Below are positions 19,119-61,873 of a stretch of DNA of 64,000 nucleotides, in pieces (position 1 is the first letter of the stretch; the number at the start of each line of letters is the position of its first letter). Source of the stretch: Nitrospira sp. (GTDB lineage: Bacteria > Nitrospirota > Nitrospiria > Nitrospirales > Nitrospiraceae). The notes under the pieces are model-generated. The model did not search any database, was not told the DNA's origin, and worked only from the letters and a program-made list of their open reading frames with translations. The translations under genes and the position numbers were made by a program. The stretch lies in the NCBI GenBank assembly GCA_024760545.1, contig CP060501.1, positions 1 through 64,000 of the forward strand, read 5' to 3'.

Positions 19119-19134
19119 CCCTGGATATCCCTAG
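19119..19134 (-). promoter_or_regulatory. CTAGGG-type element upstream of glgX (degenerate second half)
   Basis: Minus strand reads CTAG-GGATATCC-AGGG, 65 bp before the glgX ATG. The first half matches the recurring motif; the second half is degenerate. Confidence 0.4.
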
Positions 19135-19344
19135 TACAGGTGGTCATAACTTATCCCCTCGGACAGTCGGACTGACACCGATCATATGCGTCACCTCGCA
19201 GCGCAGACGGTTGGCTTCGCGTTCGTTCAATCTAGGAACGTTACCAGTGTGGACATCGTGGAAATCTCGCTAGAATGACTGAGTAACAAGATAGATAGTG
19301 AGTTGGAGAAAATTGGATGAGCGACCCACCCGTTTGTCCATCTC

Positions 19345-19800
19345 ATGAACAAGCTGCTCCAAATCCCTTGTACTCATTGCCGTAGCCTGAACCGTGTACC
19401 AAACACTCGGCTGACCGATCGGCCAATTTGCGGACATTGTCATGCGCCGTTGTTTACCGGCCAGCCATTTGTACTTACTACTGACAACTTTGAACTTCAC
19501 GCATCCCGCAGTGATATTCCACTAGTCGTGGATTTTTGGGCTGCTTGGTGCGGACCTTGTCAGGTGATGGCGCCTGCCTATCACAAGGCAGCCAAAATGC
19601 TGGAACCGGAAGTTCGAGCAGGCAAGATCAATTCGGACGAGGAGCGAAGTCTGGCGGCGAGATTCGAGATTGTGAGCATTCCGACGTTGATCATCTTCCG
19701 GGAAGGGCGCGAACTGGGCAGGAAGCCGGGGATCATGGAGACGCACGAGATCGTCCGATGGGTACGCAGCTTCGCAGATTCCAACTATAAGTCGGATTAG
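19345..19800 (+). CDS. trxC: Thioredoxin 2 (TrxC-like, N-terminal zinc finger)
   Basis: 151 residues. An N-terminal zinc-binding segment has paired cysteines Cys9/Cys12 and Cys29/Cys32 (CTHC, CGHC), as in TrxC. The thioredoxin fold follows with VDFWAAWCGPCQ (active-site Cys69/Cys72) and the cis-proline loop SIPTLIIF. It reduces cytosolic protein disulfides and is usually induced by oxidative stress. No clear Shine-Dalgarno precedes the ATG. The next plus-strand gene (YihY-like) is 166 bp away, so co-transcription is uncertain. Confidence 0.92.
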   Translation: MNKLLQIPCTHCRSLNRVPNTRLTDRPICGHCHAPLFTGQPFVLTTDNFELHASRSDIPLVVDFWAAWCGPCQVMAPAYHKAAKMLEPEVRAGKINSDEERSLAARFEIVSIPTLIIFREGRELGRKPGIMETHEIVRWVRSFADSNYKSD

Positions 19801-19966
19801 TACTATGTGTGGCCCTGAAACCAGTTTTTTAGCTTCTGGTCTCATGCATGAGCCTCGAAGTCCGGCTATTCAGGGGAATCCCAGTCCCTCCTCAATCGGC
19901 TTTCGTATGAATAATCAATGGATCTATGGCTCGCAATGGCCGAGCCCCAGAGTTTGAAGGGCGCAC

Positions 19967-20890
19967 ATGAGTCGAACATCAGCCGAATCGTCGCTCACAA
20001 GGGGATCGCCGCTGTACAATCCCTGGAGGCTCGGAGGGTTGTCGATCCGAGAACTGAGCCGGAGACTTTGGCGCGAAAGTCTTCAGGACGAACTGCTGGG
20101 TCGCGCTGCCCAACTGTCCTACTACATCCTGCTGGCGCTGTTTCCCGCGCTGATTTTTCTCACGGCGTTCATGGGCGTCTTCTCAGTGCACAATTACATG
20201 CCCGAACTGATGAGTTACCTGCGGCAGGTATTGCCCAATGACGTGCTTTCCATGGTTGAACGATTCTTGAAGCAAGTCGCGGAGGGCAGCGGTATCGATA
20301 TCCTTTCACTAGGGGGGTTGGGCGCGATCTGGGCGTCATCGAGCGGTGTGACGGCCATCATGGAGGCGCTGAATGTCGTATATGGCGTCAAGACGGATAG
20401 TCGACCATATTGGAAGGTGCGCGTCACGGCGATACTACTCACCATCGGATTGGCGGGGTTCGTCATTCTCTCCTTGACCTTGGTGCTGTATGGACCCCGC
20501 CTTGGCGGATGGATTGCCGATCTGGTCGGACTGGACCGGGTCTTTGTCGTGGCATGGAATCTCCTGCAATGGCCTGTCGTAGCCGCCATCATGCTGGCAG
20601 TCGTCGGCGTGATCTATTACGTATGCCCCGATATCCGGCAGGATTGGCGTTGGATCTCGCCTGGATCGGCGTTCGCCGTGGCCATGTGGTTTATGGTTTC
20701 GCTTGGGTTCAAACTTTATGTTGATAACTTCGGCGACTACAACAAAGTCTATGGGTCCATCGCCGGTGTCATCGTGCTCATGCTGTGGCTCTATTGGAGC
20801 GGCATGGTGCTCTTGGTAGGGGGCGAGATCAATTCCGAGATCGATAAAGCCGCCACGTTAGGTAACCCCGGACGGGAAGCGGCCGTATAG
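19967..20890 (+). CDS. YihY/BrkB-family membrane protein
   Basis: 307 residues with six predicted membrane helices (for example YYILLALFPALIFLTAFMGVF, VTAILLTIGLAGFVILSLTLVLYG and VIVLMLWLYWSGMVLLVGGEINSEI). The C-terminal YWSGMVLLVGGEIN is the family signature. Older annotations call this ribonuclease BN, which is incorrect for this family. It is an inner-membrane protein of unknown activity, sometimes linked to envelope integrity or transport. No operon partner is clear. Confidence 0.9.
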   Translation: MSRTSAESSLTRGSPLYNPWRLGGLSIRELSRRLWRESLQDELLGRAAQLSYYILLALFPALIFLTAFMGVFSVHNYMPELMSYLRQVLPNDVLSMVERFLKQVAEGSGIDILSLGGLGAIWASSSGVTAIMEALNVVYGVKTDSRPYWKVRVTAILLTIGLAGFVILSLTLVLYGPRLGGWIADLVGLDRVFVVAWNLLQWPVVAAIMLAVVGVIYYVCPDIRQDWRWISPGSAFAVAMWFMVSLGFKLYVDNFGDYNKVYGSIAGVIVLMLWLYWSGMVLLVGGEINSEIDKAATLGNPGREAAV

Positions 20891-21051
20891 ACCGCCCGCC
20901 ATCTCCTCAAACCTAGAAGTCCGTAACCCGCTAAGGCGTATACGTCACAGCGCCGCAAACCGAGTTATTGCAAAGTGATTGCCCAGGGAACCTGATAGGT
21001 GGCACGTTTACTCGTGCGTGCTATCGTGATCATCGGTAGGATTAAAAAAAC

Positions 21052-22212: not shown

Positions 22213-22220
22213 TGAGCCAC

Positions 22221-22982: not shown

Positions 22983-23152
22983 TCAAGGTATTGTGCTTAT
23001 CCGTTTCTCATAGGTATGTAACGCGAGCACGACTGATGACATGACCCTCGCCAATGATTCACCCTGTGATCAATAGGACGCGACGTTGGTCAGGAGTAAT
23101 AACAAGGGTGGCGATCTCCGCCGCTCCGGCAACAATTCCGGAATCATCAACC

Positions 23153-23533: not shown

Positions 23534-23549
23534 CTAGGGGAAAACCCAG
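23534..23549 (+). promoter_or_regulatory. CTAGGG-type element upstream of the hybrid kinase gene (degenerate second half)
   Basis: Plus strand CTAG-GGGAAAAC-CCAG, 138 bp before the ATG at 23687. The second half differs from CTAG by one base. Confidence 0.4.
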
Positions 23550-23686: not shown

Positions 23687-26170
23687 ATGAGCACCAAGGA
23701 CTTTCTAACCGAAGACGGCGCATATCCAGACCCCACCCATCTCACTGCCGGGGCCGATGGCAACCCACCGATGGTTGTTCCTGCAGGTCGATCCCATCGA
23801 TCCATTTTCCAAAGAGCGGCGGCAATCCCTCCCGCCCTGCTTACGGCAGGCGTGCTCGCGATAGCCACGTTGCTGCGCATCGCGCTCACACCCGTGTTTG
23901 GGAGCGGCTATACCTTTATCACGTTCTATCCTGCCACGATGTTCAGCACAGTCATCGCCGGCTGGCGATACGGACTTGCAACGGCCTTGGCCGCTGCGAT
24001 TTTGTCGACACTATTGTTTATCGATCCCTTCAGCAATGTCGAGCATGCGGCGGCAATCGGGGTGTTTCTCGCAGTCGATGGACTCATGATCGTCATCGCG
24101 GATTGGACTCGCAGGGCCCGGCGACAATCGGAGCTGGAAGCCTCCCTGATCCGAGCGCGGGAAGGCGAACTGCGCGAAGAATTCCGGAAGCGGACGGAAG
24201 TGGCAGCGCGGACCAGCGGGGAGCAACTGCGCTCCATACTTGATCGGGCGCCGGCAACGATTTTTTTGAAGGATCGCGCAGGACGCTATCTCTTTTTCAA
24301 CGACCAGTTCGGCCATTTATTCCACCTTGGGAGAGAGCACGCTTATGGCAAGACTGATAGAGAGCTGCTTCCCACCGAGTTGGCGGACCAATTTGTCGAA
24401 AACGATAGACACGTTTGGGAATCCGGCACATTGCTGACCATCGAAGAATATGTTCCGCAAATGGACGGGCGGCATACCTCGCTGGTTCAGAAGTTCCTGC
24501 TGCGCGATGCCGACGGCCATCCTTACGCGTTATGCGGGATTGCGCTGGACATCACCGATCGTCTGAAGATGGAAGCAGCGATCCGTGCCGGTGAGGAACG
24601 GCTGCAATTGGCGCAGACGGCCGGAGGCGTCGGCACCTTCGATTGGGATATCGTGGCGCAGCGCGGGGTGTGGTCCCCTGAGCTGGAACGAATATGGGGT
24701 TTGCCACCCGGAAGCTTCGAGGGAAGTTATGCCGCGTGGCGTCGCTTGGTTTATCCGGAAGATCTCGCGGCCGCTGAAGCGGGAGCGGCAAGATCCATGG
24801 AAGATCCTAGCAAGGCTCAGGAATATGAGTATCGCATCATGCGCCCGGATGGAGCCCTTCGATGGATCTACGCGAAGGCCAAGACGTTATGTGATGCAGA
24901 GGGCCGGCGGATTCGCATGGTAGGCGTCAACATGGATATTACCGACAGAAAAGAAGCCCAATTGCGCCTTGAACGGTCCACTGAAGAATTGGAACGAGAG
25001 GTCGAGGTGCGCACGAAGGAACTCGTGCAGTCGCAGAACCGGCTGCGTGCCATGGCGACCGAACTGAACCTGACCGAGCAGCGTGAACGCAAACGACTTG
25101 CCACAGAGCTGCATGATCATCTGCAACAGATGCTCGTCTTCGGTAAGTTGACCATTGGACAGGGTAAGCAGGCGGCAATCGGGATACCCGCCTGCGAAAA
25201 AGTTCTCAATAAAGTCGACGAAATGTTGTCTGATGCTCTGAGCTATACCCGCACGCTCGTCTCGGAACTCAGTCCTCCGGTGCTGCGTGACCATGGGCTC
25301 ATTGCCGGACTCAAATGGCTGGGCGAGTCCATGAAGAAACATGAGCTATCGGTGGCGGTCATCGTTCCGGAGGACAATGGGCTCAAGCTGCCGGAGGACC
25401 AAGAGATCCTTTTGTTTCAATCCGTGCGGGAACTGTTGATCAATTCGTCCAAGCATGCGGGAGTAGGGCATGCCACAGTGAGGCTAGTCCAGTATGATGA
25501 CTGTTTGGAGATTACGGTGCGCGACGAGGGAAAAGGTTTCGACCTCACTGCTGCTGGCACTCCTGGCAGCGGACTCTCCTCCAAGTTTGGGCTCTTCAGC
25601 ATTAGAGAACGTATGAGGGCGCTGGGAGGGTCTTTCGCGATTGACTCGGCACCGGGCCACGGGACGACGGCAACGATCATGCTGCGTGTGACCAGACATG
25701 CTGAGACAGCAGTGCTGAATCCTGCAGCCCTGGAAGTGCAAGATCGGGCCTTTGGCATTCAACTCTCAACGCACCAGAAGAGCACCGCCACTCGCGTTCT
25801 GCTGGTGGACGACCACGCCATGGTTCGGCAGGGCCTTCGTTCCGTGCTGGATGCCTACAAGGATCTTCAAGTAGTCGGGGAGGCGCGGGATGGGGAAGAA
25901 GCTGTGAAATTGGTCCAAGATCTGCGGCCTAGAGTCGTCGTGATGGACATCAACATGCCGAAGATGAACGGGATTGATGCCACGGCGCGCATTAAAGCCA
26001 AGTGGCCCGGGACCATCGTCATCGGCATCTCGGTCAACACCGGCGACGACAACAGCGACGCCATGAAACGAGCCGGAGCAACCACCGTCCTCACCAAAGA
26101 CAAGGCTGTTGACCAGCTTCACGATGCGATTATTCACGAAGTCGGCGCATCAACCTTCAATCTCACGTGA
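23687..26170 (+). CDS. Hybrid sensor histidine kinase: DUF4118-like TM, 2 PAS, HisKA_3, HATPase, receiver
   Basis: 827 residues. The start is the ATG at 23687 (RBS GAGAGGGG); the open frame runs 167 codons further upstream with no typical coding content. Order: hydrophobic KdpD-like sensor region (45-140), PAS1 (about 180-295), PAS2 (300-425), coiled coil, HisKA_3 with the phospho-His in ELHDHLQQ (His476), HATPase_c of the NarX/DegS type (575-672), and a C-terminal NarL-like receiver with Asp754 in VVMDINMPKMNG. It should autophosphorylate and pass phosphate to its own receiver and then to separate proteins. No LuxR output is attached. A degraded copy of the same architecture lies at 52774-53562. 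Confidence 0.92.
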   Translation: MSTKDFLTEDGAYPDPTHLTAGADGNPPMVVPAGRSHRSIFQRAAAIPPALLTAGVLAIATLLRIALTPVFGSGYTFITFYPATMFSTVIAGWRYGLATALAAAILSTLLFIDPFSNVEHAAAIGVFLAVDGLMIVIADWTRRARRQSELEASLIRAREGELREEFRKRTEVAARTSGEQLRSILDRAPATIFLKDRAGRYLFFNDQFGHLFHLGREHAYGKTDRELLPTELADQFVENDRHVWESGTLLTIEEYVPQMDGRHTSLVQKFLLRDADGHPYALCGIALDITDRLKMEAAIRAGEERLQLAQTAGGVGTFDWDIVAQRGVWSPELERIWGLPPGSFEGSYAAWRRLVYPEDLAAAEAGAARSMEDPSKAQEYEYRIMRPDGALRWIYAKAKTLCDAEGRRIRMVGVNMDITDRKEAQLRLERSTEELEREVEVRTKELVQSQNRLRAMATELNLTEQRERKRLATELHDHLQQMLVFGKLTIGQGKQAAIGIPACEKVLNKVDEMLSDALSYTRTLVSELSPPVLRDHGLIAGLKWLGESMKKHELSVAVIVPEDNGLKLPEDQEILLFQSVRELLINSSKHAGVGHATVRLVQYDDCLEITVRDEGKGFDLTAAGTPGSGLSSKFGLFSIRERMRALGGSFAIDSAPGHGTTATIMLRVTRHAETAVLNPAALEVQDRAFGIQLSTHQKSTATRVLLVDDHAMVRQGLRSVLDAYKDLQVVGEARDGEEAVKLVQDLRPRVVVMDINMPKMNGIDATARIKAKWPGTIVIGISVNTGDDNSDAMKRAGATTVLTKDKAVDQLHDAIIHEVGASTFNLT

Positions 26171-27306: not shown

Positions 27307-27308
27307 CG

Positions 27309-28640: not shown

Positions 28641-29088
28641 ACGTGCCTCTCATCAGATAATGTCGAGGAGGTCAGAAGGATAAGATGGTGTCCCAAGAAA
28701 AAGCACCGCAAACCGACCGGACTAATTGTCTCTCTGAAGACAAGATAGTCCTCTAGCGAGCCAAGATCGTAAGTCCAGTAATTCTGAATTTACATAAGAT
28801 CCCAGTGCAGCTTTTCGCGAGAGAACAATTTCCTTCGAGGATTACTGCAACCGGTTGCCGTGTAAGGTTTGTTCAGACGCAATATCGATACCCGCATAAG
28901 TGAGTAATCAGCCACTGGTCCCATGCCAAACGATCCTCATGCAGACATCCTGTCTCTGGTATGGCCTTTGCGAAATTTGCTCTTCATCACACAGCAACGG
29001 TGATCGAGCATCCACTATGTAATAGACGGTTGCCCCGTCAGCAGGAAAACAGGGTGCATATTCACTGCTCCAATAATGGGAAGAGAAC
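28641..29088. other. Divergent intergenic region between cydA and the PRC-barrel gene
   Basis: About 450 bases with no gene I can support. It should hold the promoters of both flanking genes. The only pattern I can point to is the CTAG-type element at 28741-28756. Confidence 0.4.
28741..28756 (-). promoter_or_regulatory. CTAG-N8-CTTG element upstream of cydA
   Basis: Minus strand CTAG-AGGACTAT-CTTG, 100 bp before the cydA ATG. It shares the spacing of the recurring motif, with one mismatch in the second half. Confidence 0.35.
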
Positions 29089-29966: not shown

Positions 29967-30980
29967 ATGATGCGAGTCGCTATTGACGGGTTGGGGCGAA
30001 TCGGGCGCGCCACGTTCAAGATTCTCGCGACCATACCGGAGCTTGAGCTGGCCGCGATCAACGATCTGACTTCCCCCGACGAGTTGGCCTACCTGATCAA
30101 TCATGACACGGTGTATGGCCGCTATCCCAATCGAGTAGGAGCCGATCGGAAGGGGATCACGATGGTCGACCGGGTGTATCCCGTGTTTGCGGAACGCGAC
30201 CCGCTTCATCTTCCATGGAAGGAACTGGGAGTCGATGTGGTTTTCGAATGTTCGGGGCAGTTCAATACCAGAACCGCGCTCTCAAAACATCTCGAAGCCG
30301 GAGCGAAGCGGGTCATCCTCTCGGCGCCGGCCAAGGACGAGGATATTCCCACCGTCATCTATGGTGTGAATGCGTATGACGAAAAGGCCGGGCCGATTCT
30401 GTCATGCGCCAGTTGCACGACGAATTGCGTGACACCGGTCGTGGAAATCATTCACCGCCATCTCGGGGTGGTGAAGGCGGTGATGACGGCTACGCACGCC
30501 TACACCGCCAGTCATGCATTGGTCGATGGGCAGCATACGAGGAAACGCCGCGGGCGAGCGGCGGCCGCCAACCTTGTGCCGTCGTCGACGGGGGCCGCTC
30601 TCACGGCAACCCGCGTCTTGCCCGTTCTCAAAGGGCGATTTCAGGGAGCGGCCATCCATGTTCCCATCCCGATCTGTTCGCTCTCCGACATCGTGATGCT
30701 GACGGAACGGGAGACGAGTGTCGGGGAGGTGAACGCGATGTTCTTGGAGGAGGCGCGTAGTGACCGGTATGCAGGAGTTGTGGGGGTGACGGAAGATCCG
30801 GTGGTGTCTTCCGACATCGTCCAGGATCCGCGCGCCTCGATCGTTGATGTGGACATGACTCAAGTTGTGGACGGCAATCTGGTCAAGGTCATGAGTTGGT
30901 ACGACAATGAGTGGGGTTATGCGAGCCAGATGGTTCGGCAAGCTCTTTCGATGGCCCTCATCGTCCCCGTCGAGGTCTAG
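29967..30980 (+). CDS. gap: Glyceraldehyde-3-phosphate dehydrogenase, type I
   Basis: 337 residues. Rossmann start MRVAIDGLGRIGR, Asp33 in the AINDL strand end (NAD preference), the catalytic ASCTTNC with Cys150, the relay His in ATHAYT, and the C-terminal SWYDNEWGYASQM. It converts glyceraldehyde-3-phosphate to 1,3-bisphosphoglycerate in glycolysis or gluconeogenesis. There is no adjacent pgk, so it is not the usual gap-pgk cluster; it may be a secondary isozyme. CTAG-type sequence lies immediately upstream. Confidence 0.95.
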   Translation: MMRVAIDGLGRIGRATFKILATIPELELAAINDLTSPDELAYLINHDTVYGRYPNRVGADRKGITMVDRVYPVFAERDPLHLPWKELGVDVVFECSGQFNTRTALSKHLEAGAKRVILSAPAKDEDIPTVIYGVNAYDEKAGPILSCASCTTNCVTPVVEIIHRHLGVVKAVMTATHAYTASHALVDGQHTRKRRGRAAAANLVPSSTGAALTATRVLPVLKGRFQGAAIHVPIPICSLSDIVMLTERETSVGEVNAMFLEEARSDRYAGVVGVTEDPVVSSDIVQDPRASIVDVDMTQVVDGNLVKVMSWYDNEWGYASQMVRQALSMALIVPVEV

Positions 30981-31063
30981 AGGAGCAGGAGTCGAGCCTG
31001 CTCCAACGTATCGGCGAGACTCTGCCCATACATCGGTTGCTTGCACTCGGGTCTGAACATTTT

Positions 31064-33715
31064 ATGAGTTTGACACGATACAGGAAGAAAAGAAATTTCT
31101 CTCAGACGCCTGAACCACGAGGCTCACAGTCGAGAGAAAAGCCTCCCTCACAGCTGCTCTACGTCGTCCAGAAGCACGCTGCAAGCCGGCTGCACTATGA
31201 TTTCCGGCTTGAATTGGATGGCACGCTGAAAAGCTGGGCGGTTCCCAAGGGACCCAGTCTGAATCCGGACGACAAGCGGCTTGCAGTGCACGTCGAAGAC
31301 CATCCCATGGAATATGCCGCTTTCGAGGGCATCATCCCGCCGAAACAGTATGGCGCCGGCACGGTCATGGTATGGGATCAAGGTCAGTGGGAATCGGATG
31401 GAGATCCCCGAGCGGCCTATCACAAGGGGCGGATGAAATTTGCCCTGTTCGGGAAAAAGTTGCAGGGCCGCTGGACACTGGTGCGGATGAGCGGAACAGA
31501 CAACGCAGACGGTAAGAACTGGCTTCTGATCAAGGAACGAGACGAGTATGCGCGGACTGCGACTAGATCGAATTCAAGTCTCGCGTCGTCCCACAGTGTC
31601 AAGAGCGGAAGAAGCATGGATGAGATTACAAAGGCCAAGTCCGATGTATGGCACTCTCATCGTACGTCCGGTGGCGTAGAGCGGATCAAGATCTCCCGGG
31701 ACCTCAAGACGAAACGGGGATCGGTAACCAGTATGGGTACGGTCACATGTCCCGCATGGATATCGCCTCAGCTGGCAACGCTCGTTGATAAGATTCCGGA
31801 GGGAGAAGGTTGGATCCACGAACTCAAGTATGACGGGTATCGCATGCTGTGCAGAATTGAGCAGGGCGTTGTGCAACTCTTCTCAAGAAACGGTCGGGAA
31901 TGGACCCAAAAGCTGCCCGAGCACGTGAAGGCGGCCCGCCGATTCTCCGTTGAAAATGCATGGCTGGACGGTGAACTCGTTGCCATGAAATCGGACGGGT
32001 CGATGAGCTTTCAGGCATTGCAAAATGCCTTTGACGGTGGATGGGATGGCCGGCTTGTGTACTATGTCTTCGATCTCCTATTTTTCAATGGGAGAGACCT
32101 CAGATCGTCCCCTTTGCACGAACGCAAGCGACTTTTAGCGTCGCTTCTATGCGGGCAGCCGGAGAGCGGCCTGTTGCAATACAGCGCCCATATCCTTGGT
32201 AAGGGACCTACCGTCTTTGAGACGGCTTGTCGCCGAGGACTCGAAGGAGTGATCGCCAAACGAGTGGACGGGCGATATACCGAAGGCCGAAATCGAAACT
32301 GGGTCAAAGTAAAGTGTCAACGCCGCCAAGAATTCGTCATTGGCGGCTATACCGAGCCATCGGGCTCCCGGCGCGGATTCGGAGCGCTCTTGCTCGGTGT
32401 ATATGAGAAACCGGGACGATTGGTCTATGTTGGACGAGTCGGGACGGGATTCTCAGAGAATCGATTGTCTCAACTCTATCGGATCTTGCAGCGGCATGAA
32501 CGACCCCGGCCGCCATTTGTCGATCCTCCGACGGGTGGGGATACAAAAGGAGTCCACTGGGTTAAACCGGAATTAGTCGCTGAAGTACGTTTTGCGGAAT
32601 GGACACAGGAAGGTCTCCTCCGCCAGGCGGCGTTCCTGGGTCTGCGCGACGACAAGCCGGCCAAGGCCATTGTCCGTGAGTCGGCGGTCCATGCATCGGC
32701 GAATCGGGAGCAGAAAAATAGATCGGCTGACGAGCCGGATCGCGAATCGAAGCGTGCAGCTGCCCGGGTGCACCGCGCGAGACCTCTCCGTCAAGATCGG
32801 AAGCCGACACATGCGGCGATTGTGGCGGGTATCGAGATCACGAATCCCTATCGAGTGTTGTTTCCACATGACGGCATCACGAAACTCGAGCTGGCGCAGT
32901 ACTATGATCGAATCGGGGACACGATCTTGCCTCATGTTCGTGGGCGTCCATTGACGTTGGTCCGTTGCCCGGAAGGACACGACACAGGATGCTTTTATCA
33001 GAGACACGCGACGGACCAGATTCATGAGGCGATCGATCGAGTCGAGGTTGAAGAATCGGATGGACGCGCCAGCTACATGGTGGCGAACACAACCGCTGCC
33101 TTGGTTGCACTCGTGCAACTCGGCGTCCTCGAATTCCACACCTGGGGAGCGAGGCGAGAGCGGCTGGATCGTCCCGACCGTATGACGCTGGATTTGGATC
33201 CGGCTCCGGATGTGCCGTGGCGTGAAGTCGTCGAAGCCGCATTTCTTATCAGAACCCTGCTCGAAGAGTTGCGTTTGACGTCATTCGTCAAGACCACAGG
33301 TGGGAAAGGATTGCATGTCGTGGTGCCATTACAGCGACGGCACTCATGGGACGAGGTGAAGGACTTCGCGAAGTCAGTGGCCGGACATATGGTACGAACG
33401 ATACCTGCCAGATTTACGGACAACATGTCGAAACGAGTGCGCAAAGGCAAGGTGTATATCGATTATCTCAGGAACGGGCGAGGGGCGACGACCGTGGCAG
33501 CTTACTCGACGCGTGCCAAACCGCGAGCTCCGCTCTCTGCTCCGTTGGGGTGGGATGAGTTAACTCCATCGCTGCGCTCAGATCAGTTCAACGTGCACAA
33601 CATCGAGGAACGACTGTCAGAGCTTGCCAAAGATCCGTGGGCTGGGTATGAGACGGTCCAACAGCATTTGACGACGAGTATGATGACCGGTCTCGGTACC
33701 TCCCGCCAACTCTAG
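31064..33715 (+). CDS. ligD: ATP-dependent DNA ligase D (PE-ligase-polymerase)
   Basis: 883 residues from the ATG at 31064. Domain order: 3'-phosphoesterase (about 30-155, YVVQKHAASRLHYDFRLEL), ATP-dependent ligase with the adenylated Lys255 in ELKYDGYR and its OB-fold (about 235-545, GGYTEPSGSRRGFGALLLG), then an archaeo-eukaryotic primase-type polymerase (about 590-870) with the catalytic DLDP motif in MTLDLDPAPD. With Ku it repairs double-strand breaks by non-homologous end joining. The ku gene is at 60800-61681, unusually distant. The linker between PE and ligase and that between ligase and polymerase are both long and basic. Confidence 0.95.
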   Translation: MSLTRYRKKRNFSQTPEPRGSQSREKPPSQLLYVVQKHAASRLHYDFRLELDGTLKSWAVPKGPSLNPDDKRLAVHVEDHPMEYAAFEGIIPPKQYGAGTVMVWDQGQWESDGDPRAAYHKGRMKFALFGKKLQGRWTLVRMSGTDNADGKNWLLIKERDEYARTATRSNSSLASSHSVKSGRSMDEITKAKSDVWHSHRTSGGVERIKISRDLKTKRGSVTSMGTVTCPAWISPQLATLVDKIPEGEGWIHELKYDGYRMLCRIEQGVVQLFSRNGREWTQKLPEHVKAARRFSVENAWLDGELVAMKSDGSMSFQALQNAFDGGWDGRLVYYVFDLLFFNGRDLRSSPLHERKRLLASLLCGQPESGLLQYSAHILGKGPTVFETACRRGLEGVIAKRVDGRYTEGRNRNWVKVKCQRRQEFVIGGYTEPSGSRRGFGALLLGVYEKPGRLVYVGRVGTGFSENRLSQLYRILQRHERPRPPFVDPPTGGDTKGVHWVKPELVAEVRFAEWTQEGLLRQAAFLGLRDDKPAKAIVRESAVHASANREQKNRSADEPDRESKRAAARVHRARPLRQDRKPTHAAIVAGIEITNPYRVLFPHDGITKLELAQYYDRIGDTILPHVRGRPLTLVRCPEGHDTGCFYQRHATDQIHEAIDRVEVEESDGRASYMVANTTAALVALVQLGVLEFHTWGARRERLDRPDRMTLDLDPAPDVPWREVVEAAFLIRTLLEELRLTSFVKTTGGKGLHVVVPLQRRHSWDEVKDFAKSVAGHMVRTIPARFTDNMSKRVRKGKVYIDYLRNGRGATTVAAYSTRAKPRAPLSAPLGWDELTPSLRSDQFNVHNIEERLSELAKDPWAGYETVQQHLTTSMMTGLGTSRQL

Positions 33716-34960: not shown

Positions 34961-35109
34961 CTCGATGCATGCTGAAACTTTATGCGTGAAGCCAGTTAAA
35001 GATTATACGAGGGAACTCCCTAGCTCGAGTGGGACACAGGGGTTCAACGCGAGTCTGTCTGTGCACGAGCTGTTATTCTCCGCTTGGGCGGACATCCGCA
35101 TCGGATATC

Positions 35110-35660: not shown

Positions 35661-35676
35661 CTAGGTTGTCTCCTAG
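35661..35676 (-). promoter_or_regulatory. CTAG-N8-CTAG element (perfect) between lipoprotein and DUF2934 genes
   Basis: Minus strand CTAG-GAGACAAC-CTAG. A further CTAGGG half-site in plus orientation sits at 35700-35705. Divergent promoters are expected here. Confidence 0.55.
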
Positions 35677-35800: not shown

Positions 35801-36127
35801 ATGGCACGCACTCGATCGACCAAGCAGACGACCCAGAAACCGTCGGCACCCAAAGAGCCGACGCCAGACAATCCTCCGCGAGAGTCTGAAAGGGCGGACT
35901 CTATCACCGGGGGAACTGCGAAACGGGATGGGCCGTCATTGCGCGGCTCAACGAACGCACGACAGACAATGTCTACCGCTGAGGAAGAATCCAGCTACAG
36001 CGAAGATATGTCGACGCACCGCCGCATCGCGGTAAGGGCTTTTATTCTGTACCTGGAAAGCGGATGCAGGCACGGCAACGACTTGGAACATTGGTTTGAG
36101 GCAGAACGCGAAGTCAAGATGCAGTGA
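35801..36127 (+). CDS. DUF2934 protein
   Basis: 108 residues. The first 70 are low-complexity, rich in Thr, Pro, Glu and Arg, and likely disordered. The C-terminal 35 (THRRIAVRAFILYLESG...DLEHWFEAEREV) are the DUF2934 motif, a short helix pair with conserved W-x-x-A-E. Cytosolic, function unknown, commonly found near stress proteins. It is followed 46 bp later by the YtxH gene. Confidence 0.8.
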   Translation: MARTRSTKQTTQKPSAPKEPTPDNPPRESERADSITGGTAKRDGPSLRGSTNARQTMSTAEEESSYSEDMSTHRRIAVRAFILYLESGCRHGNDLEHWFEAEREVKMQ

Positions 36128-40255: not shown

Positions 40256-40271
40256 CTCGGATAGTCCCTAG
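40256..40271 (-). promoter_or_regulatory. CTAGGG-N6-CGAG element upstream of the copper protein
   Basis: Minus strand CTAG-GGACTATC-CGAG. One mismatch in the second half. Confidence 0.4.
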
Positions 40272-42649: not shown

Positions 42650-44371
42650 ATGAAATATGTGGCACTCGCAACGGATTATGACAGCACGCTGGCAAGTGCC
42701 GGACGGGTGAAACCTGAGACGATCACGGCACTCGAACGTCTTATCCAATCCAGGCGGAAACTCGTTCTGGTCACCGGGCGTTTGCTGCCGGATATCCTCG
42801 ATATCTTTCCTGAAATCGCGCTGTGCGAGCGAGTTGTCGCTGACAATGGCGCCGTCCTCTATAGGCCCGCTACACGCGAACAGATATCGTTGGCTCCTCG
42901 GATTCCTGCGGCGTTTGTGGACGAGCTGCGGCGCCGGAAGGTGCCGGAACTCTCGGTTGCGGAGTCGATCGTGAGCACGGTTCGACCGCACGAACTGACG
43001 CTCCTAGCGGCCATTCGCGATTTGGGACTTGAGCTGCAAGTCATCTTCAATCGAGATGCGGTCATGGTCGTTCCGGCTGGCATCAACAAAGCCAGTGGTC
43101 TCGTGGCCGCCTTGAGCGAGATGGGATTGTCGCCGCGCAATGTCGTTGCGATCGGTGATGCGGAAAACGACCATGCCTTGCTGAATCAGTGTGAGTATGC
43201 GGTGGCGGTGGCCAATGCCGTACCGATGCTCAAGGAAAGCGCCGATTGGGTCACCAACGGTGCGGAAGGATGTGGAGTTTCCGAAATCATCGATGAACTC
43301 GTCAAGCATGACATGCAGGTGTCTCCGTTCAGCACGAGCCGCCGCAATATCCTGATCGGTACACGGCAGAACGGCGCAGAAGTCGCCATTCCCGCTACCG
43401 GATTAAATCTCTTACTGGCCGGCTCTTCCGGAAGCGGAAAATCGACCTTGGCCACTGGGATTCTGGAGCGGGTGATGGAGCAGGGCTATCAGTTTTGTAT
43501 TATCGATCCGGAGGGAGATTATGAGGGATTTGCCGGAGCGGTCATGTTTGGAACTTCTCAGCGAGGTCCCAGCGTGACGGAAATTCTCACAGCCCTTGAA
43601 GGCTCAAGCACGAATGTGGTCGTCAATCTTGTGGGAGTACCGCTGCACGATCGACCGGCTTTTTTCTTGGCCCTCTTGCCAGCCCTTCAGGAGCGTCGAG
43701 CCAAGTTCGGACGACCTCATTGGATACTCGTCGACGAAGCGCACCATTTGATGCCGCGCGAATGGCAACCGGTTCAGGCAGTCCTAGCGCAAGACTTGAC
43801 CGGTATGGTCTACGTCACGGTGCATCCGGACCAGGTTGCGAAATCGGTGCTGCGCACGGCGGATATAGTGGTGTCCTTGGGAGAGGATCCGGCGGGCACG
43901 ATCAGGAGGTTTTGTCAGACGCTTGATTTGCCTATGCCCTCGGAGGAACTTCCGGCACTGGATCATGGTGAAGCGGTGTTTTGGGATCGACGGTCAACAG
44001 AGCCACCCCACCGGGTACGCATTGCTCCCTGTGAAGCGGACCATCAACGTCATCGCCGGAAATATGCCGAAGGCGAGTTGCCCACCGATCGAAGCTTCTA
44101 CTTCCGGGGTCCTGAAAATGCATTGAACCTGCGCGCGCACAACCTGATCCAATTCATGCAGCTGGCGGAGGGTGTGGATAAGAAGACGTGGTTGCATCAC
44201 CTTCGACGGGGGGATTACAGCACATGGATGTTGGAAGGCATTAAGGATCCGCAGTTGGCCGATGCCGCTCGGCAGATTGAACAGCAGCCGTCTCTCAGCG
44301 CCGAACGCAGCCGCCAATTGATACGGTCTGCGATCGAGGAGCGGTACACCGTTCCCTCGACGGGTCTATGA
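42650..44371 (+). CDS. HAD-superfamily phosphatase fused to a HerA/VirB4-like ATPase
   Basis: 573 residues. The first 220 form a HAD-IIB phosphatase: DYDSTLA (Asp9/Asp11), VTGR (Thr42), Lys147 and GDAEND (169-174), like sucrose- or trehalose-phosphatases. The second half is a P-loop ATPase with Walker A GSSGSGKS (258-265), IIDPEGDYEGF, and Walker B ILVDEAHHLM (359-368), as in HerA/DUF87 ATPases. The C-terminal 110 residues are helical and unassigned. Such a fusion is not one of the common architectures. A phosphatase whose sugar-phosphate or other substrate is coupled to an ATPase is possible; the function is unknown. Confidence 0.85.
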   Translation: MKYVALATDYDSTLASAGRVKPETITALERLIQSRRKLVLVTGRLLPDILDIFPEIALCERVVADNGAVLYRPATREQISLAPRIPAAFVDELRRRKVPELSVAESIVSTVRPHELTLLAAIRDLGLELQVIFNRDAVMVVPAGINKASGLVAALSEMGLSPRNVVAIGDAENDHALLNQCEYAVAVANAVPMLKESADWVTNGAEGCGVSEIIDELVKHDMQVSPFSTSRRNILIGTRQNGAEVAIPATGLNLLLAGSSGSGKSTLATGILERVMEQGYQFCIIDPEGDYEGFAGAVMFGTSQRGPSVTEILTALEGSSTNVVVNLVGVPLHDRPAFFLALLPALQERRAKFGRPHWILVDEAHHLMPREWQPVQAVLAQDLTGMVYVTVHPDQVAKSVLRTADIVVSLGEDPAGTIRRFCQTLDLPMPSEELPALDHGEAVFWDRRSTEPPHRVRIAPCEADHQRHRRKYAEGELPTDRSFYFRGPENALNLRAHNLIQFMQLAEGVDKKTWLHHLRRGDYSTWMLEGIKDPQLADAARQIEQQPSLSAERSRQLIRSAIEERYTVPSTGL

Positions 44372-47130: not shown

Positions 47131-47146
47131 CTAGTGGATTCCCTAG
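47131..47146 (-). promoter_or_regulatory. CTAGGG-N6-CTAG element (perfect)
   Basis: Minus strand CTAG-GGAATCCA-CTAG. Nearest downstream gene on that strand is far away, so it may act on flanking plus-strand genes or mark a lost unit. Confidence 0.5.
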
Positions 47147-47368: not shown

Positions 47369-47384
47369 CTAGAGTCCTTCCTAG
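47369..47384 (-). promoter_or_regulatory. CTAG-N8-CTAG element (perfect) upstream of 47457
   Basis: Minus strand CTAG-GAAGGACT-CTAG, ending 72 bp before the ATG at 47457. Confidence 0.5.
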
Positions 47385-50385: not shown

Positions 50386-50401
50386 CTAGCTTGTTCCCTA
50401 G
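50386..50401 (-). promoter_or_regulatory. CTAGGG-N6-CTAG element (perfect) upstream of csbD-like gene
   Basis: Minus strand CTAG-GGAACAAG-CTAG, 122 bp before the ATG at 50263. Confidence 0.55.
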
Positions 50402-50617: not shown

Positions 50618-50633
50618 CTAGGGACATCTCTAG
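50618..50633 (+). promoter_or_regulatory. CTAGGG-N6-CTAG element (perfect) upstream of LuxR regulator
   Basis: Plus strand CTAG-GGACATCT-CTAG, about 150 bp before the ATG at 50783. Confidence 0.55.
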
Positions 50634-50782: not shown

Positions 50783-51424
50783 ATGTATAGTGCACATATT
50801 TTGCTCGCCGACGATCACCCCCTTGTACTGGAGAGCATGAAGCAATTGCTCGAGCCGACCTTTTCAGTGGTGGGAACCGCGCGCACAGGACAGGAGGTGC
50901 TCGATGCCGCTAAGGAGTTGCGACCGGATATCGTGCTCCTCGACGCGAATATGCCGGGAATGAGCGGATTTGAAGCGGCGCGAAAGCTCAAGTCCCTGGT
51001 TCCCACCGTGAAGGTCATATTTGTGACGATGCTTACCGAGGCTGTGTATGTGAGCGAAGCATTTCGTGCGGGAGCGGTGGGCTATGTGCTGAAGCAGTCG
51101 GCCTCGGATGAACTGCACGAGGCGGTCAAGAGCGCCATGATGAACCGGCGGTACGTGTCTACCAAGCTCAACGTGGAGATTCGCGAAGCCATGGAGTGCG
51201 AATGGTCGAGGCCGGAAGGGTATACGACCGACTTAACCCAGCGACAACGTCAAATTCTTGTCCTGCTTGCGAATGGATGTACCACCAAGAGTATCGCCAA
51301 AGATCTTAATATTTCGATGAAGACCGTCGAGTTTCACAAGGCCAACATTACCCGCAAACTTGGTGTCCGTACCACATCCGATCTGATTCGCTTTGCGCTC
51401 GCCTCGGGTATAACGGAATTGTAA
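50783..51424 (+). CDS. NarL/FixJ-family response regulator (orphan)
   Basis: 213 residues. Receiver with Asp54 (VLLDANMPGM) and acidic pair Asp10-Asp11; LuxR-type HTH at about 150-205 (LTQRQRQILVLLANGCTTKSIAKDLNISMKTVEFHKANITRKLG). No kinase adjacent. It converges on a second NarL-type regulator 61 bp away (51486-52148) with the same layout, a paralogous pair. Confidence 0.95.
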   Translation: MYSAHILLADDHPLVLESMKQLLEPTFSVVGTARTGQEVLDAAKELRPDIVLLDANMPGMSGFEAARKLKSLVPTVKVIFVTMLTEAVYVSEAFRAGAVGYVLKQSASDELHEAVKSAMMNRRYVSTKLNVEIREAMECEWSRPEGYTTDLTQRQRQILVLLANGCTTKSIAKDLNISMKTVEFHKANITRKLGVRTTSDLIRFALASGITEL

Positions 51425-51485
51425 TCCGGCATTCCCTCATCACGTGCAAAATCCTATCGATCTCGAATCTTTCATATTAGTGACA

Positions 51486-52148
51486 TTAGTGAATGGTGAT
51501 GAGACCGTTTGCAATGGCATATTTCGTCAGCTGAGCAGCGGACCGCATACCAAGCTGTCTCATGATCCGTGTCTTGTGAAACTCAACAGTCTTGGTCGAT
51601 AGGTTCAGCACCGCCGCGACTTCCTTGATGGACTTGCCTTCGGCCACGAGCTGCAGCACTTCCCGTTGGCGCAGGCTGAGGGTATGCGAGAAACCTCCCT
51701 CCTCTGCCTCGCTTTCAGTGGGGAGCGGATGCATCGCTTGCTCGACTACGCTTTGCGGGACGATGGGGGAGATATAAGTATTGCCTTTGAGCACCTCCTT
51801 GATGGCCTGTACCAGCTCATCTCCGACCGACTGCTTGAGCACATAGCCTGACACCCCGATGCGTAACGCTTCCATCACATAACTCGACTCCGAGTGCATC
51901 GTGAGAACGATAACTTTGACGGATGGGTGGTGCTTCCGGATTTGACGAGACGCGTCCAATCCATTGAGCAGCGGTAGGGAAATGTCCACGATCGCGATGT
52001 CCGGCGGACATTCCTCGATGGCTTTCAGCAGCGCTCGGCCGTCCGAAAGGATGCCTAAAAGGGCAAATTCAGGCTCTAACAGTTTCTGAAGGCCTTCCGC
52101 GACAAGGACGTGATCATCCGCCAGTAGGATGGTTGGACGTGTATTCAT
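51486..52148 (-). CDS. NarL/FixJ-family response regulator (orphan)
   Basis: 220 residues. Receiver with Asp55 (IAIVDISLPLLNG), a variant of the usual D-x-x-M/L-P, and a C-terminal LuxR HTH (LSLRQREVLQLVAEGKSIKEVAAVLNLSTKTVEFHKTRIMRQLG). Orphan. Convergent paralog of 50783-51424. A CTAG..CTTG element lies 57 bp upstream. Confidence 0.95.
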   Translation of the reverse strand: MNTRPTILLADDHVLVAEGLQKLLEPEFALLGILSDGRALLKAIEECPPDIAIVDISLPLLNGLDASRQIRKHHPSVKVIVLTMHSESSYVMEALRIGVSGYVLKQSVGDELVQAIKEVLKGNTYISPIVPQSVVEQAMHPLPTESEAEEGGFSHTLSLRQREVLQLVAEGKSIKEVAAVLNLSTKTVEFHKTRIMRQLGMRSAAQLTKYAIANGLITIH

Positions 52149-52204: not shown

Positions 52205-52220
52205 CAAGGGACTCTCCTAG
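52205..52220 (-). promoter_or_regulatory. CTAG-N8-CTTG element upstream of NarL-type gene
   Basis: Minus strand CTAG-GAGAGTCC-CTTG, 57 bp before the ATG at 52148. One mismatch in the second half. Confidence 0.4.
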
Positions 52221-52773: not shown

Positions 52774-53562
52774 TCATGGTTTGGCTGCCAGGGCTTGATG
52801 AATCATGTCGTACAACTGATCTACCGCGGCTTCTTTCGTGAGGAGGGCCGACGCGCCTGCCTGAGTCATCGCTGCGTAGTTGTCGTGACCCGCGTTCACC
52901 GACAATCCAAGAACGATCGTCTGGGGATATCGCGATTTGATAACTGCGGTGGCATCGACCCCATTCATTTTCGGCATATTCAGGTCCATGACGACAACCG
53001 AAGGCCGTAAGTGTTCGACATAATCAAGCGATTCCTGCCCGTCGGCCGCCTCACCCACCACTTCGATATCGGAATAGCCCTCCAAAAGGCTGCGTAAACC
53101 TTGCCGCACCATCGAGTGATCGTCCACCAACAAAACACGGATGGGTGGCTTCTGATGGGGCACGTCAGTGCTAAATTCAGAACTGCTCGGTGGTGTGGCA
53201 AGCTGAGTGTCTGAGGCCGTCGTGCTTGGCTCGTCGCCGGGTGTTAAGCGCGCATCACTATTGCCTGGGGCAAGCACCGGCCCATACAGGTCATGACTTG
53301 GTGTGATCAGGGATACCGTCGCGCGATCTGTCGGCGGCTGTAGTTCAACGACCAAGGACCGTGTGTAGTTCAGCGCTTGTATCAGAGCCTGATCGAGATC
53401 ATTCAGAAGCCCTGCAGCCTTCTTGTCAGGCACCAACGGCGCAGCCTGGCGGAGCTGCATGCGCATCACAATGAGCGATTGAGTCAACTGGTCATGCGGA
53501 GCAGGAATCCGATCCTGTGATTGCACATGTTCCCTGGTTTTGATAGTCACAACTTGTTCCAA
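52774..53562 (-). CDS. Response regulator with a relic histidine-kinase dimerisation domain
   Basis: 262 residues. The first 75 match the HisKA_3 helices of the hybrid kinase at 23687-26170: phospho-His position His23 in PHDQLTQSL and ALNYTRSLVVELQPP aligned with ALSYTRTLVSELSPP. The HATPase domain is gone, replaced by a 60-residue low-complexity linker. A NarL-type receiver follows (141-262, Asp193 in VVMDLNMPKMNG) and there is no LuxR output. It cannot autophosphorylate unaided. It may act as a phosphotransfer/receiver module for another kinase, or be a decaying paralog. A perfect CTAG element lies 56 bp upstream. Confidence 0.8.
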   Translation of the reverse strand: MEQVVTIKTREHVQSQDRIPAPHDQLTQSLIVMRMQLRQAAPLVPDKKAAGLLNDLDQALIQALNYTRSLVVELQPPTDRATVSLITPSHDLYGPVLAPGNSDARLTPGDEPSTTASDTQLATPPSSSEFSTDVPHQKPPIRVLLVDDHSMVRQGLRSLLEGYSDIEVVGEAADGQESLDYVEHLRPSVVVMDLNMPKMNGVDATAVIKSRYPQTIVLGLSVNAGHDNYAAMTQAGASALLTKEAAVDQLYDMIHQALAAKP

Positions 53563-53617: not shown

Positions 53618-53633
53618 CTAGGCAAACCCCTAG
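53618..53633 (-). promoter_or_regulatory. CTAGGG-N6-CTAG element (perfect) upstream of 53562
   Basis: Minus strand CTAG-GGGTTTGC-CTAG, 56 bp before the start at 53562. Confidence 0.55.
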
Positions 53634-55442: not shown

Positions 55443-55458
55443 CTAGGGTCTAGCCTAG
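55443..55458 (+). promoter_or_regulatory. CTAGGG-N6-CTAG element (perfect) between TPP enzyme and glgC
   Basis: Plus strand CTAG-GGTCTAGC-CTAG, 105 bp before the glgC ATG and 80 bp before the divergent TPP-enzyme start. A third CTAG is embedded at 55450-55453. Confidence 0.55.
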
Positions 55459-56801: not shown

Positions 56802-56814
56802 CACGACGAGGGTC

Positions 56815-59721: not shown

Positions 59722-59730
59722 CGCCATATG

Positions 59731-59746
59731 CTAGGGCGTTACCGAG
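59731..59746 (+). promoter_or_regulatory. CTAGGG-N6-CGAG element upstream of the small membrane-protein gene
   Basis: Plus strand CTAG-GGCGTTAC-CGAG, 57 bp before the GTG at 59804. One mismatch in the second half. Confidence 0.4.
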
Positions 59747-59803
59747 TGGCCCTTCTGAACGGACTTGCTAGAGTCATTGCCATATGAGGAGTTGGAGGTA
59801 CAC

Positions 59804-60226
59804 GTGACGGCTCAAGAAGAGACGCGCTCGTCGAGGAACGGACTGTTCGGACTTCTCATGGGTCTGGTGGGAGATGTGCGGACTTTGATCCGTCAAGAAC
59901 TTCAGCTCATGCGGGATGAGTTCCATGCGGAGACCAAAAAGGCTTGCCAGGCGGCAGTTTCGATCGGGGTTGGAATAGGCTTGACCCTCATCGGCGGTAT
60001 ATTCGCGCTCATTATGATCGTTCATATGCTGCATCAATTCGCCAATCTTCCATTGTGGGCCTGCTATGGAGCGATCGGGATCGTCCTCTTAGCCGTCGGC
60101 GCGCTGCTTCTGGTCAATGCCACGCAAGCATTACAGAATTTCAATTTAATTCCGCGCCGAACCCTCCATTCACTGAAGGAAGACGCTCAATGTATCAAAG
60201 ATCACATACCGTCGAACAAGATCTAA
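59804..60226 (+). CDS. Phage-holin-like family (DUF1469) membrane protein
   Basis: 140 residues from a GTG start at 59804 (RBS GGAGG); the open frame begins earlier at a weak TTG. An amphipathic N-terminal helix (GLVGDVRTLIRQELQLMRDEFHAE) is followed by two membrane helices (VGIGLTLIGGIFALIMIVHML and IGIVLLAVGALLLVNA), the layout of holin superfamily III/DUF1469 proteins. Despite the name, these are usually not lysis proteins. The next gene overlaps it by 37 bp. Confidence 0.8.
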   Translation: MTAQEETRSSRNGLFGLLMGLVGDVRTLIRQELQLMRDEFHAETKKACQAAVSIGVGIGLTLIGGIFALIMIVHMLHQFANLPLWACYGAIGIVLLAVGALLLVNATQALQNFNLIPRRTLHSLKEDAQCIKDHIPSNKI

Positions 60227-60786
60227 AGGACATCGCCCAAACACGCCTCGAGATCAGCCGTAAAATGCATTTGCTCGACGAGGAAATACGGGCGCAGCTC
60301 CAGGGGATAAAAGTGACGTCGTCCGGTATCGCGGCGATCGCTGCAGAAATTGCCAAGGACGTCGGATATACGACTGCGAGAATGTTGAATCCTGCGCGGC
60401 AGCTGGATAGGCGGCCTTTGGCTGTCCTCGCAGGAGTGGTTCTGTTCGGTTATGCCATCAGCATGTTGGAGAAGAGATTGCGGAGGCCGAAAGTCTATCC
60501 CTACTATCCTCCGGAAACGCAGGGAGTACCGATTATGCCCTCGGAATCGAAAGAGGGTGAAAAGGTGAAATCCGGCGTCTATCCGTATTTCCCGGAGCGT
60601 AGGGGCCGGTCTTCATTTCCAGCAGACGCCTGGGATGAAATCAAGAATAGTTTGCAAACCGAGATCCGGCACTCACAAAAAGCCGTCATGTACAGTCTTC
60701 GTGCATTTGCTCGGAATGCGGCCAAACAGATCGTCCCGGCGCTCCTCGGCTCTCTGCAGCCGAGGTCTCGAATATCCCGCCGATAG
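60190..60786 (+). CDS. DUF3618-like membrane-associated protein
   Basis: 198 residues, starting at the ATG 60190 inside the preceding gene. N-terminal helix pair (VEQDLKDIAQTRLEISRKMHLLDEEI) like DUF3618, a central hydrophobic stretch (RPLAVLAGVVLFGYAISML), then proline/tyrosine-rich and basic segments. Function unknown. Order holin-like, DUF3618-like, ku with overlap and a 13-bp gap suggests co-transcription. Confidence 0.65.
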   Translation: MYQRSHTVEQDLKDIAQTRLEISRKMHLLDEEIRAQLQGIKVTSSGIAAIAAEIAKDVGYTTARMLNPARQLDRRPLAVLAGVVLFGYAISMLEKRLRRPKVYPYYPPETQGVPIMPSESKEGEKVKSGVYPYFPERRGRSSFPADAWDEIKNSLQTEIRHSQKAVMYSLRAFARNAAKQIVPALLGSLQPRSRISRR

Positions 60787-60799
60787 GTCAGCGAGGCAC

Positions 60800-61681
60800 A
60801 TGATGTCACGAGTTCTGTGGAAAGGCGCGATCAGTTTTGGACTGGTCCATATTCCCGTCGGGCTGTACTCAGCCGAACAGCGGAACAGCTTCGACCTGAC
60901 CTTGTTGGATCGCCGCGATATGAAACCTGTCGGATTCAAGCGATACAACAAAGAGACGGAAGAGGAAGTGCCCTGGGATCAAATCGTGAAAGGCTATGAG
61001 TATGAAAAGGACCGGTATGTCGTGCTGACGGATGAAGATTTTCGACGGGCCAACATCGAGGCCACGCAGACGGTGGACATTTTGCGCTTTGTCGACGAAC
61101 AAGAGATCGCTCCGATGTACTTCGAGACGCCCTACTACTTGGCGCCCGAACGGCGCGGAGAAAAAGGCTACGCTCTCCTGCGGCAAACGTTGAAACAGAC
61201 ACGCAAGGTCGGGATCGCCAATGTCGTGATCCGTACGCGCCAATACGTGGCGGCGCTGCTTCCGGTGGACGACATGATCGTGCTGAATACGCTTCGCTAT
61301 GCCAATGAGGTTAAGCCGGCCGAGAAATTGGACGAGCTGCCGAAAAGTCTCAAAACCGTCGGAGTGACGTCCAGAGAAACCGACATGGCCATGAAACTCG
61401 TCGAAGAAATGACGGGAGATTGGAATCCAAGAGACTATCACGATAGCTATCATGAAGACCTGCTCAAGCTGATCGACAAGCGGATCAAGGCAGGACAGAC
61501 CGAAGTCATCACCGCTACGGAGGGCGAAGAAACAGAGGAAGAGCCGAAGCGCGGAGACGTCGTGGATTTGATGGCGTTGCTCAAACGAAGCGTACAGAAT
61601 AAAGCGAAAGGACGTGAGTCTTCCTCCGGTCATCAACGAGCAAGGCCGCACACGGTTCGACCTCGACGTAAGACGGCCTAA
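60800..61681 (+). CDS. ku: Ku DNA end-binding protein
   Basis: 293 residues from the ATG at 60800. MSRVLWKGAISFGLVHIPVGLYSAE is the Ku signature start, followed by the beta-barrel bridge (VGFKRYNKETEEEVPWDQIVKGYEYEKDRYVVLTDEDF) and a basic C-terminus (HQRARPHTVRPRRKTA) seen in extended bacterial Ku proteins. It homodimerises on DNA ends and recruits LigD (31064-33715) for NHEJ. It follows two small membrane-protein genes; being in that transcript is unusual. Confidence 0.95.
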   Translation: MMSRVLWKGAISFGLVHIPVGLYSAEQRNSFDLTLLDRRDMKPVGFKRYNKETEEEVPWDQIVKGYEYEKDRYVVLTDEDFRRANIEATQTVDILRFVDEQEIAPMYFETPYYLAPERRGEKGYALLRQTLKQTRKVGIANVVIRTRQYVAALLPVDDMIVLNTLRYANEVKPAEKLDELPKSLKTVGVTSRETDMAMKLVEEMTGDWNPRDYHDSYHEDLLKLIDKRIKAGQTEVITATEGEETEEEPKRGDVVDLMALLKRSVQNKAKGRESSSGHQRARPHTVRPRRKTA

Positions 61682-61857
61682 GACGCCCATCCGCTCCATC
61701 AGGATCTCATCATTGAGGTCTTTGGGGAGTAGCCCGTAGCCCAAACCTCTCCTTTTCAACGGAACTCACTTAGGAACTGCGTGTTCTTCCGCATCGAGAT
61801 GTGAAGATCCCTGGGCGATGATAGGAAGACGCCCACTTCCACACAGAGAACTCTGCC

Positions 61858-61873
61858 TAGGGAATCTGCTAGT
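61858..61873 (+). promoter_or_regulatory. CTAGGG-N6-CTAG element (perfect) upstream of the hybrid kinase
   Basis: Plus strand CTAG-GGAATCTG-CTAG, 60 bp before the ATG at 61934. Confidence 0.55.

Follow-up and report, generated by a model that had tools for sequence, protein, structure and literature searches.

A short site in which two CTAG tetramers stand eight bases apart recurs across the genome of a Nitrospira sp., and we regard it as probably the 16-18 bp inverted-repeat operator of a NarL/FixJ-type activator, which in this Nitrospira would most likely be read by R1 and/or R2, two response regulators encoded side by side. Nitrospira are among the main nitrite oxidisers, and to our knowledge no Nitrospira global regulator has been characterised so far. 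The site was picked out by an earlier note in the window, that is, the whole stretch of 64 kb analyzed here (bases 1-64000 of contig C1, which has 4,540,909 bp; the genome comprises 4.81 Mb, including a second contig of 273 kb). That note listed eight exact intergenic matches to CTAG-N8-CTAG. All eight were recovered outside called genes, the last beginning at 61857, one base off the given 61858, while 100 shuffles of the window gave a mean of 0.14 and a maximum of 2. CTAG pairs with a 12-bp period occur eight times in the window, and those with any other period up to 60 bp at most twice.

Because CTAG is its own complement, the orientation of the site must be read from the neighboring bases. 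Among the 92 half-sites of the genome (46 sites, both orientations), G follows the first CTAG in 60, and by symmetry C precedes the second CTAG, whereas the second CTAG is followed by T in 41 and by G in only 19. On a single strand, this G and C co-occur in 20 of the 46 sites. The four central bases lean toward A/T, and A/T is also found outside the CTAGs. The half-sites face inward with dyad symmetry (G at base 5, C at base 12), the direct form was not seen, and the site is an inverted repeat of about 16-18 bp, aCTAGGR-WWWW-YCCTAGt. Since the flanking bases are mirrored and not repeated, the two halves face each other, and the direct-repeat geometry of the earlier note does not hold. Nor can the sites be described as pointing toward genes, as had been stated, because a dyad alone cannot point at a gene.

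Enrichment of the 8-bp spacing over other spacings, as the earlier view implied, was evident in the whole genome, where 46 N8 pairs were found vs. about 7.7 per other spacing (Poisson p = 7e-21; approximately sixfold), the background being slightly low because the N1-N30 search from which it was taken (270 CTAG pairs in total) counts only the nearest partner of each CTAG. This search shows 14 of the 15 window pairs, and the N8 pair at 55443 appears in it as two shorter pairs. Pooling 79 genomes of the genus gave 973 N8 pairs vs. about 305 per other spacing. In our genome, 36 of the 46 sites fall in about 19% of C1 around the window, limits that were chosen after seeing the sites. According to gene calls from a simple codon model made for this analysis, 42 of the 46 sites lie outside genes, two overlap open reading frames (ORFs) of 21 and 38 amino acids (aa) that are probably spurious, and two (283236 and 4159307) lie in long ORFs. 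When a single coding test was applied to both sets, five of the 46 N8 sites scored as coding vs. 18 of 40 control CTAG pairs of other spacing, hand-picked from 100 pairs of the N1-N30 listing (p = 5e-4), which bears out the claimed bias toward intergenic DNA; three of the five coding-scored sites (50386, 55443, and 246120) probably sit in overlong ORFs. A 20-column matrix was built from the 46 N8 sites in both orientations, the eight of the window included. In the window it gave 13 matches above 11 bits, all intergenic, vs. 0.6 per shuffle (20 shuffles), which is a consistency check and not independent proof.

The candidate readers are encoded by two convergent genes in the window. R1 (50783-51424, plus strand), a REC-GerE response regulator of the NarL/FixJ type and a candidate target as well as a candidate binder, and its paralog R2 (51486-52148, minus strand) were recognized by Pfam and orthologue searches. 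PF00072 and PF00196 (receiver and GerE helix-turn-helix) were found in both, and the best solved structural match of R1 is NarL (1a04). R1 is 100% identical to a protein of the MAG Nitrospira sp. BO4. A search of the other 78 genus genomes found orthologues of R1 with at least 65% identity in 17, including the same-species G078 as well as G003, which has two copies, one of them examined. R1 and R2 are neighbors at each of the 17 loci. Upstream of R1 there is a site at 15 of them (four with one mismatch), and upstream of R1 or R2 at all 17. The predicted conservation upstream of orthologues was therefore confirmed where it was examined, namely at the R1/R2 locus and its neighbors.

When distant pairs are counted (R1 down to 51% and R2 down to 55% identity), 24 of the 79 genus genomes have R1/R2, and 23 of these are enriched in N8 pairs at p < 0.01 vs. 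16 of the 55 genomes without the pair (p = 1e-8), although this co-occurrence test, like the tests in other genomes, ignores shared ancestry. Outside the genus, we chose 14 of the 19 family genomes with at least six strict sites and two of the 11 with none. R2 (54-67% identity) was found in all 14 site-rich genomes, while neither of the two site-free genomes has a match at 1e-55, and R1 is the convergent neighbor of R2 at all 14 loci from other genera. At eleven of these loci, R1 or R2 is preceded by a site at no more than 300 bp (three exact and eight with one mismatch); of the remaining three, one has a site 750 bp away and two have none above 11.5 bits. The earlier suggestion of a common DNA-binding protein, probably a response regulator encoded nearby, is backed insofar as these comparisons point to one type of reader, with R1/R2 as the candidate.

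The sites also appear to stand in a fixed relation to promoters. The upstream region of R1 was aligned between our genome and 14 others with an R1 site (G031 and G060, which have no R1 site, and the same-species G078 were left out), and its clearest conserved block consists of the operator and then TGCCATRAT, an extended -10. In 15 of 15 genomes, the distance from the R1 operator to the start of a YANNAT hexamer is exactly 23 nt, and 11 of them read TGYCATRAT. Throughout our genome, 17 of 92 flanks show TANNNT at 22-24 nt from the edge of the operator vs. 3.2 expected (p = 5e-8), and the same test on control pairs of other spacing found it in two of 86 flanks with 1.7 expected. In other genomes it was found in 29 of 145 flanks vs. 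4.4 expected, a set that includes the regions around R1. Without these regions and other phyla, the count is 21 of 107 flanks (3.6 expected, p = 3e-10), which represent 54 distinct sites in other genus loci and still hold orthologous sites of related species. With CATAAT and CATGAT added, 19 flanks at 18 of our 46 sites carry a -10-like hexamer, and 14 of these 19 flanks face a called gene start at no more than 320 bp vs. 25 of the 73 without it (p = 0.003). If the box is a -10 hexamer, these predicted boxes would place the operator at about -51 to -36 with its centre at -43.5. This position is compatible with activation beside the -35 region, and the site looks like an activator operator.

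In the scheme that we infer, from binding and the identity of the binder to its phosphorylation, the stress signal, and activation, a dimer of a REC-GerE response regulator would bind aCTAGGR-WWWW-YCCTAGt and lie, with its centre near -43.5, next to the -35 region of promoters of the housekeeping sigma factor. Because the site adjoins the -35 region, the regulator would activate transcription, as NarL does from -44.5 and CrbR from -52 to -36. Here the likeliest binder would come from the conserved convergent pair at 50783-52148 (R1, R2, or both), phosphorylated by kinases of the HisKA_3 type, which is usual for NarL-type regulators; within the window, R1/R2 have no complete kinase gene next to them. 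The predicted regulon takes in genes for stress and maintenance along with those of kinases and stand-alone receivers; it would also include R1, giving positive feedback.

Besides shared ancestry, several observations weigh against this scheme. The site sits upstream of R2, not R1, in G031 and G060, and the -10-like box beside the near match of R2 (52205) faces away from R2. G080 has R1/R2 without significant enrichment, and G086 has them but no strict site. Conversely, because 16 of the 55 genus genomes without the pair are still site-enriched, R1/R2 cannot be the only reader, and the pair as sole regulator is untenable. No -10 hexamer is present at 22-24 nt from 28 of our 46 sites, including four of the eight exact sites in the window. 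The helix of R1, SMKTVEFHK, by the alignment that we assume, presumably keeps K180 but not S184 of RcsB. These two are reported as base-contacting recognition-helix residues of RcsB (PMC5829831).

The alternative closest to this scheme, which we consider rather unlikely, is that another NarL-type regulator reads the operator and that R1 and R2 are merely its targets. Such a reader could be R4, a kinase-linked regulator at C1:2732328, or R3, which was found in G055, G075, G087, G073, and G029 (loci L084, L087, L121, L122, and L101). The helix of R3 is KTVDFHK (KTVEFHK in G029), that of R4 is nearly the same (KTVEFHK vs. KTVDFHK in R3), and both genes follow HisKA_3 kinase genes. R3 lies behind a PAS-HisKA_3-HATPase kinase gene in G073 (L122) and G029 (L101), where CTAGGTGATCACCTAG stands upstream at 70-220 bp. 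In each of the five R3 genomes, TARACT begins exactly 23 nt from the variant site, in a conserved TATARACT box. The site-enriched genomes that lack R1/R2, for example, G055, G075, G045, G002, G087, and G073, also favor such a reader. However, G008, G066, and G067 have almost no sites, yet carry paralogues 44-45% identical to R1; since such paralogues persist in near site-free genomes, they do not track the number of sites, whereas R1/R2 does. In addition, the five R3 genomes have T as the sixth operator base in 31 of their 70 half-sites (40% of 102 if we include G013 and G045, in which R3 did not turn up), and four R1 genomes have it in 10% of 132, counting strict sites only and with orthologous sites kept in. 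This shift suggests different readers in different lineages, and the simplest reading would be a family of related regulators with lineage-specific readers.

We give little credence to a binder other than a response regulator, such as a CsoR-type metal repressor with G-tract pseudopalindrome operators. CTAG is central in CsoR boxes as we know them, between C and G tracts, while it stands at both ends of the Nitrospira site, and a CsoR-type operator was rejected on this arrangement. Moreover, the -43.5 position fits an activator better than a repressor, and the neighboring genes are too diverse for a single metal. In favor of such a repressor are the DUF326 repeats in the neighbor of site 40256 and the CCCTAG/CTAGGG strings in a paper on CsoR operators (PMC3902906). 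A true direct repeat, on which two protomers would sit head to tail along one face of the DNA, the model of the earlier note, would account for the recurrence of CTAG every 12 bp and for three tandem CTAGGA units at C1:4187344, but it is rejected by the symmetry of the flanking bases and seems to us very improbable. Still less can be said for chance or avoidance, in which CTAG is rare in genes and pairs accumulate between them without function. Control CTAG pairs are indeed often non-coding too (22 of 40), but neither process can favor one spacing about sixfold, fix a -10 box at 22-24 nt, or keep sites across species; the other spacings and the control loci led us to reject it, and its probability appears negligible.

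Returning to R1/R2 as the likely readers, we can offer a broader proposal, though only tentatively, as one that could well prove wrong. The Nitrospiraceae may run a general-stress-like regulon not via an alternative sigma factor but via the NarL-type activator pair R1/R2, acting at CTAGGR-N4-YCCTAG beside housekeeping promoters and also switching on the genes of the pair, of its kinases, and of its receivers. In certain lineages, the HisKA_3 kinase-regulator operon of R3 would have taken over and the operator moved to CTAGGT-N4-ACCTAG, regulator and operator changing together.

The eight exact sites of the window differ in their surroundings. Predicted -10-like hexamers accompany the sites at 35661-35676 (CTAGGTTGTCTCCTAG; TAGGGT 24 nt downstream on the plus strand, toward a DUF2934 gene at 35801), 47369-47384 (CTAGAGTCCTTCCTAG; TAGAGT 23 nt downstream on the plus strand, with a called gene start 73 bp off), 50618-50633 (CTAGGGACATCTCTAG; 150 bp before the R1 start, with CATAAT 23 nt downstream), and 53618-53633 (CTAGGCAAACCCCTAG; TAATGT 24 nt downstream on the minus strand, toward a HisKA_3-REC gene). 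The site at 50386-50401 (CTAGCTTGTTCCCTAG) lies between an outer membrane protein (OMP) gene and R1, and all of its 16 bases are identical in G032 and G007, where it is in the OMP-R1 interval, too. The site at 55443-55458 (CTAGGGTCTAGCCTAG), between a thiamine pyrophosphate (TPP)-enzyme gene (minus strand) and a GlgC-like gene (plus strand), has no clear -10 at the standard distance. The site at 47131-47146 (CTAGTGGATTCCCTAG) was found by both exact match and matrix scan, and no target gene was assigned to the exact match at 61857-61872 (CTAGGGAATCTGCTAG).

Of the five near matches listed earlier, two scored well and are retained, namely a probable operator with one mismatch at 40256-40271 (CTCGGATAGTCCCTAG; 13.3), which has TAGATT 24 nt downstream on the minus strand toward the DUF326 gene, and a possible operator at 52205-52220 (CAAGGGACTCTCCTAG; 13.4), 57 bp before R2, whose better -10-like hexamer is the one facing away from that gene. 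Those at 23534-23549 (CTAGGGGAAAACCCAG; 11.1), 153 bp before a hybrid kinase gene at 23687 and with no -10-like hexamer at the standard distance, and 59731-59746 (CTAGGGCGTTACCGAG; 10.7), with TAGAGT 22 nt downstream on the plus strand, are marginal, and the one at 28741 is weak (6.2). The half-sites proposed at 19119, 29925, and 34945 are unsupported (matrix scores 4.2, -6.2, and -6.0). A probable operator with one CTAG mismatch that was absent from the earlier list lies at 35008-35023 (CGAGGGAACTCCCTAG; 15.3).

Window genes close to sites encode R1, an OMP, a GlgC-like nucleotidyl transferase, a TPP enzyme, a DUF2934 protein, and a HisKA_3 remnant plus REC protein (52774-53562, minus strand), which by Pfam and -10 geometry is a likely target of site 53618. 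The hybrid kinase DUF4118-PAS-PAS-HisKA_3-HATPase-REC (23687-26170, plus strand; Pfam) is a possible partner. Elsewhere in the genome, stand-alone receivers, a CHASE3-HisKA_3-REC hybrid kinase, and DUF4142, PP2C, MscS-like, and AI-2E-type transporter proteins are encoded at most 200 bp from a site, and a second hybrid kinase and YtxH, PRC-barrel, and hemerythrin proteins within 700 bp. Upstream of two complete HisKA_3-REC hybrids there is an exact site, at a distance of 155 bp in one case and 564 bp in the other. The idea of a stress regulon suits many of these annotated neighbors, but among 40 neighbor proteins scanned with Pfam (three from the window) 14 had no match and some were unremarkable (PurE, a FAD protein), and "stress" describes the neighbors, not a function enrichment vs. 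the genome. An RNA element was rejected as an explanation, as Rfam at gathering scores matched only a tRNA in the window (3207-3279, minus strand).

Some further observations concern the sites and their neighbors. The three tandem CTAGGA units, at C1:4187344-4187371 (L024:4845-4872), follow each other in exact 12-bp steps and amount to two overlapping operators. Two stand-alone receivers (L024:3561-3917 and L026:4441-4926) have an operator and a -10 box upstream; they may belong to the same network, either as phosphate sinks or in a relay. Small proteins of 48-82 aa that form one family (LREEIRQFMVASE.LLDG..KAEELT-like) are encoded at L017:4917-5063, L019:3762-3920, L028:13461-13694, L029:4089-4262, and L030:4202-4450. 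No Pfam match was found in the three copies scanned. An operator site is present no more than about 130 bp from four of the copies, and the flanks of three of these sites are near-identical, which suggests that the copies with sites are duplicated regulon modules. Apart from the operator, the window encodes one protein in which a HAD-type phosphatase domain is joined to a HerA/AAA-like ATPase domain (42650-44371), as well as a LigD-type ligase (30911-33715) and Ku (60635-61681), i.e., bacterial end joining.

Dozens of Nitrospira genes, many of them annotated for stress survival or signaling, share one short mirror-image site. A conserved operator, a fixed promoter geometry, and a candidate regulator would together allow a large regulon to be predicted from the sequences of many uncultured species; the prediction is testable with purified protein and reporters, without Nitrospira genetics. 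Among the papers listed by our literature searches, we found no account of the operator, of its regulon, or of the R1/R2 pair in Nitrospira.

Regulators of the NarL/FixJ family occupy dyads of this kind as dimers, in most cases once phosphorylated, and can activate near -44, while the half-sites of NarL itself differ from the Nitrospira half-sites. The letters of the NreC site, which we take to be TAGGG-N4-CCCTA, fit the Nitrospira core. NreC of staphylococci reads a GC-rich palindrome (PMC8139620), but acts on nitrate respiration genes, unlike the neighbors of the Nitrospira sites. By position, the nearest parallels are NarL, which activates ogt from a site centred at -44.5 (PMC7419079) vs. 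the -43.5 predicted here, and CrbR, the LuxR-family response regulator of a hybrid kinase, whose ACTU motif is an inverted repeat at -52 to -36 directly before an RpoD promoter (PMC5715377) vs. the predicted -51 to -36. The latter was compared by position and not by consensus letters, and CrbR governs acetate use, unlike the Nitrospira system. By letters, the RcsAB box (consensus TaAGaatatTCcta; PMC4325325), in which RcsB contacts the half-sites TTAGGAA/TCTAAGA (PMC5829831), has the same core length and layout as the Nitrospira site. Unlike this box, the Nitrospira halves are both CTAGG/CCTAG, and R1 and RcsB are only distantly related (E = 1e-15). The UvrY/SirA (GacA) operator, TGTAAG-N6-CTTACA (PMC4682653), is likewise an inverted repeat with a 6-nt centre between TARG and CYTA, although UvrY binds csrB/csrC, its strongest targets, at a far upstream position (-183/-182 at csrB), whereas the Nitrospira sites adjoin the -35 region of many genes. 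The core TARG-N6-CYTA, shared by these known operators, is present in the Nitrospira site, and with half-site and spacing in agreement with those of RcsB and UvrY, this kind of operator is known.

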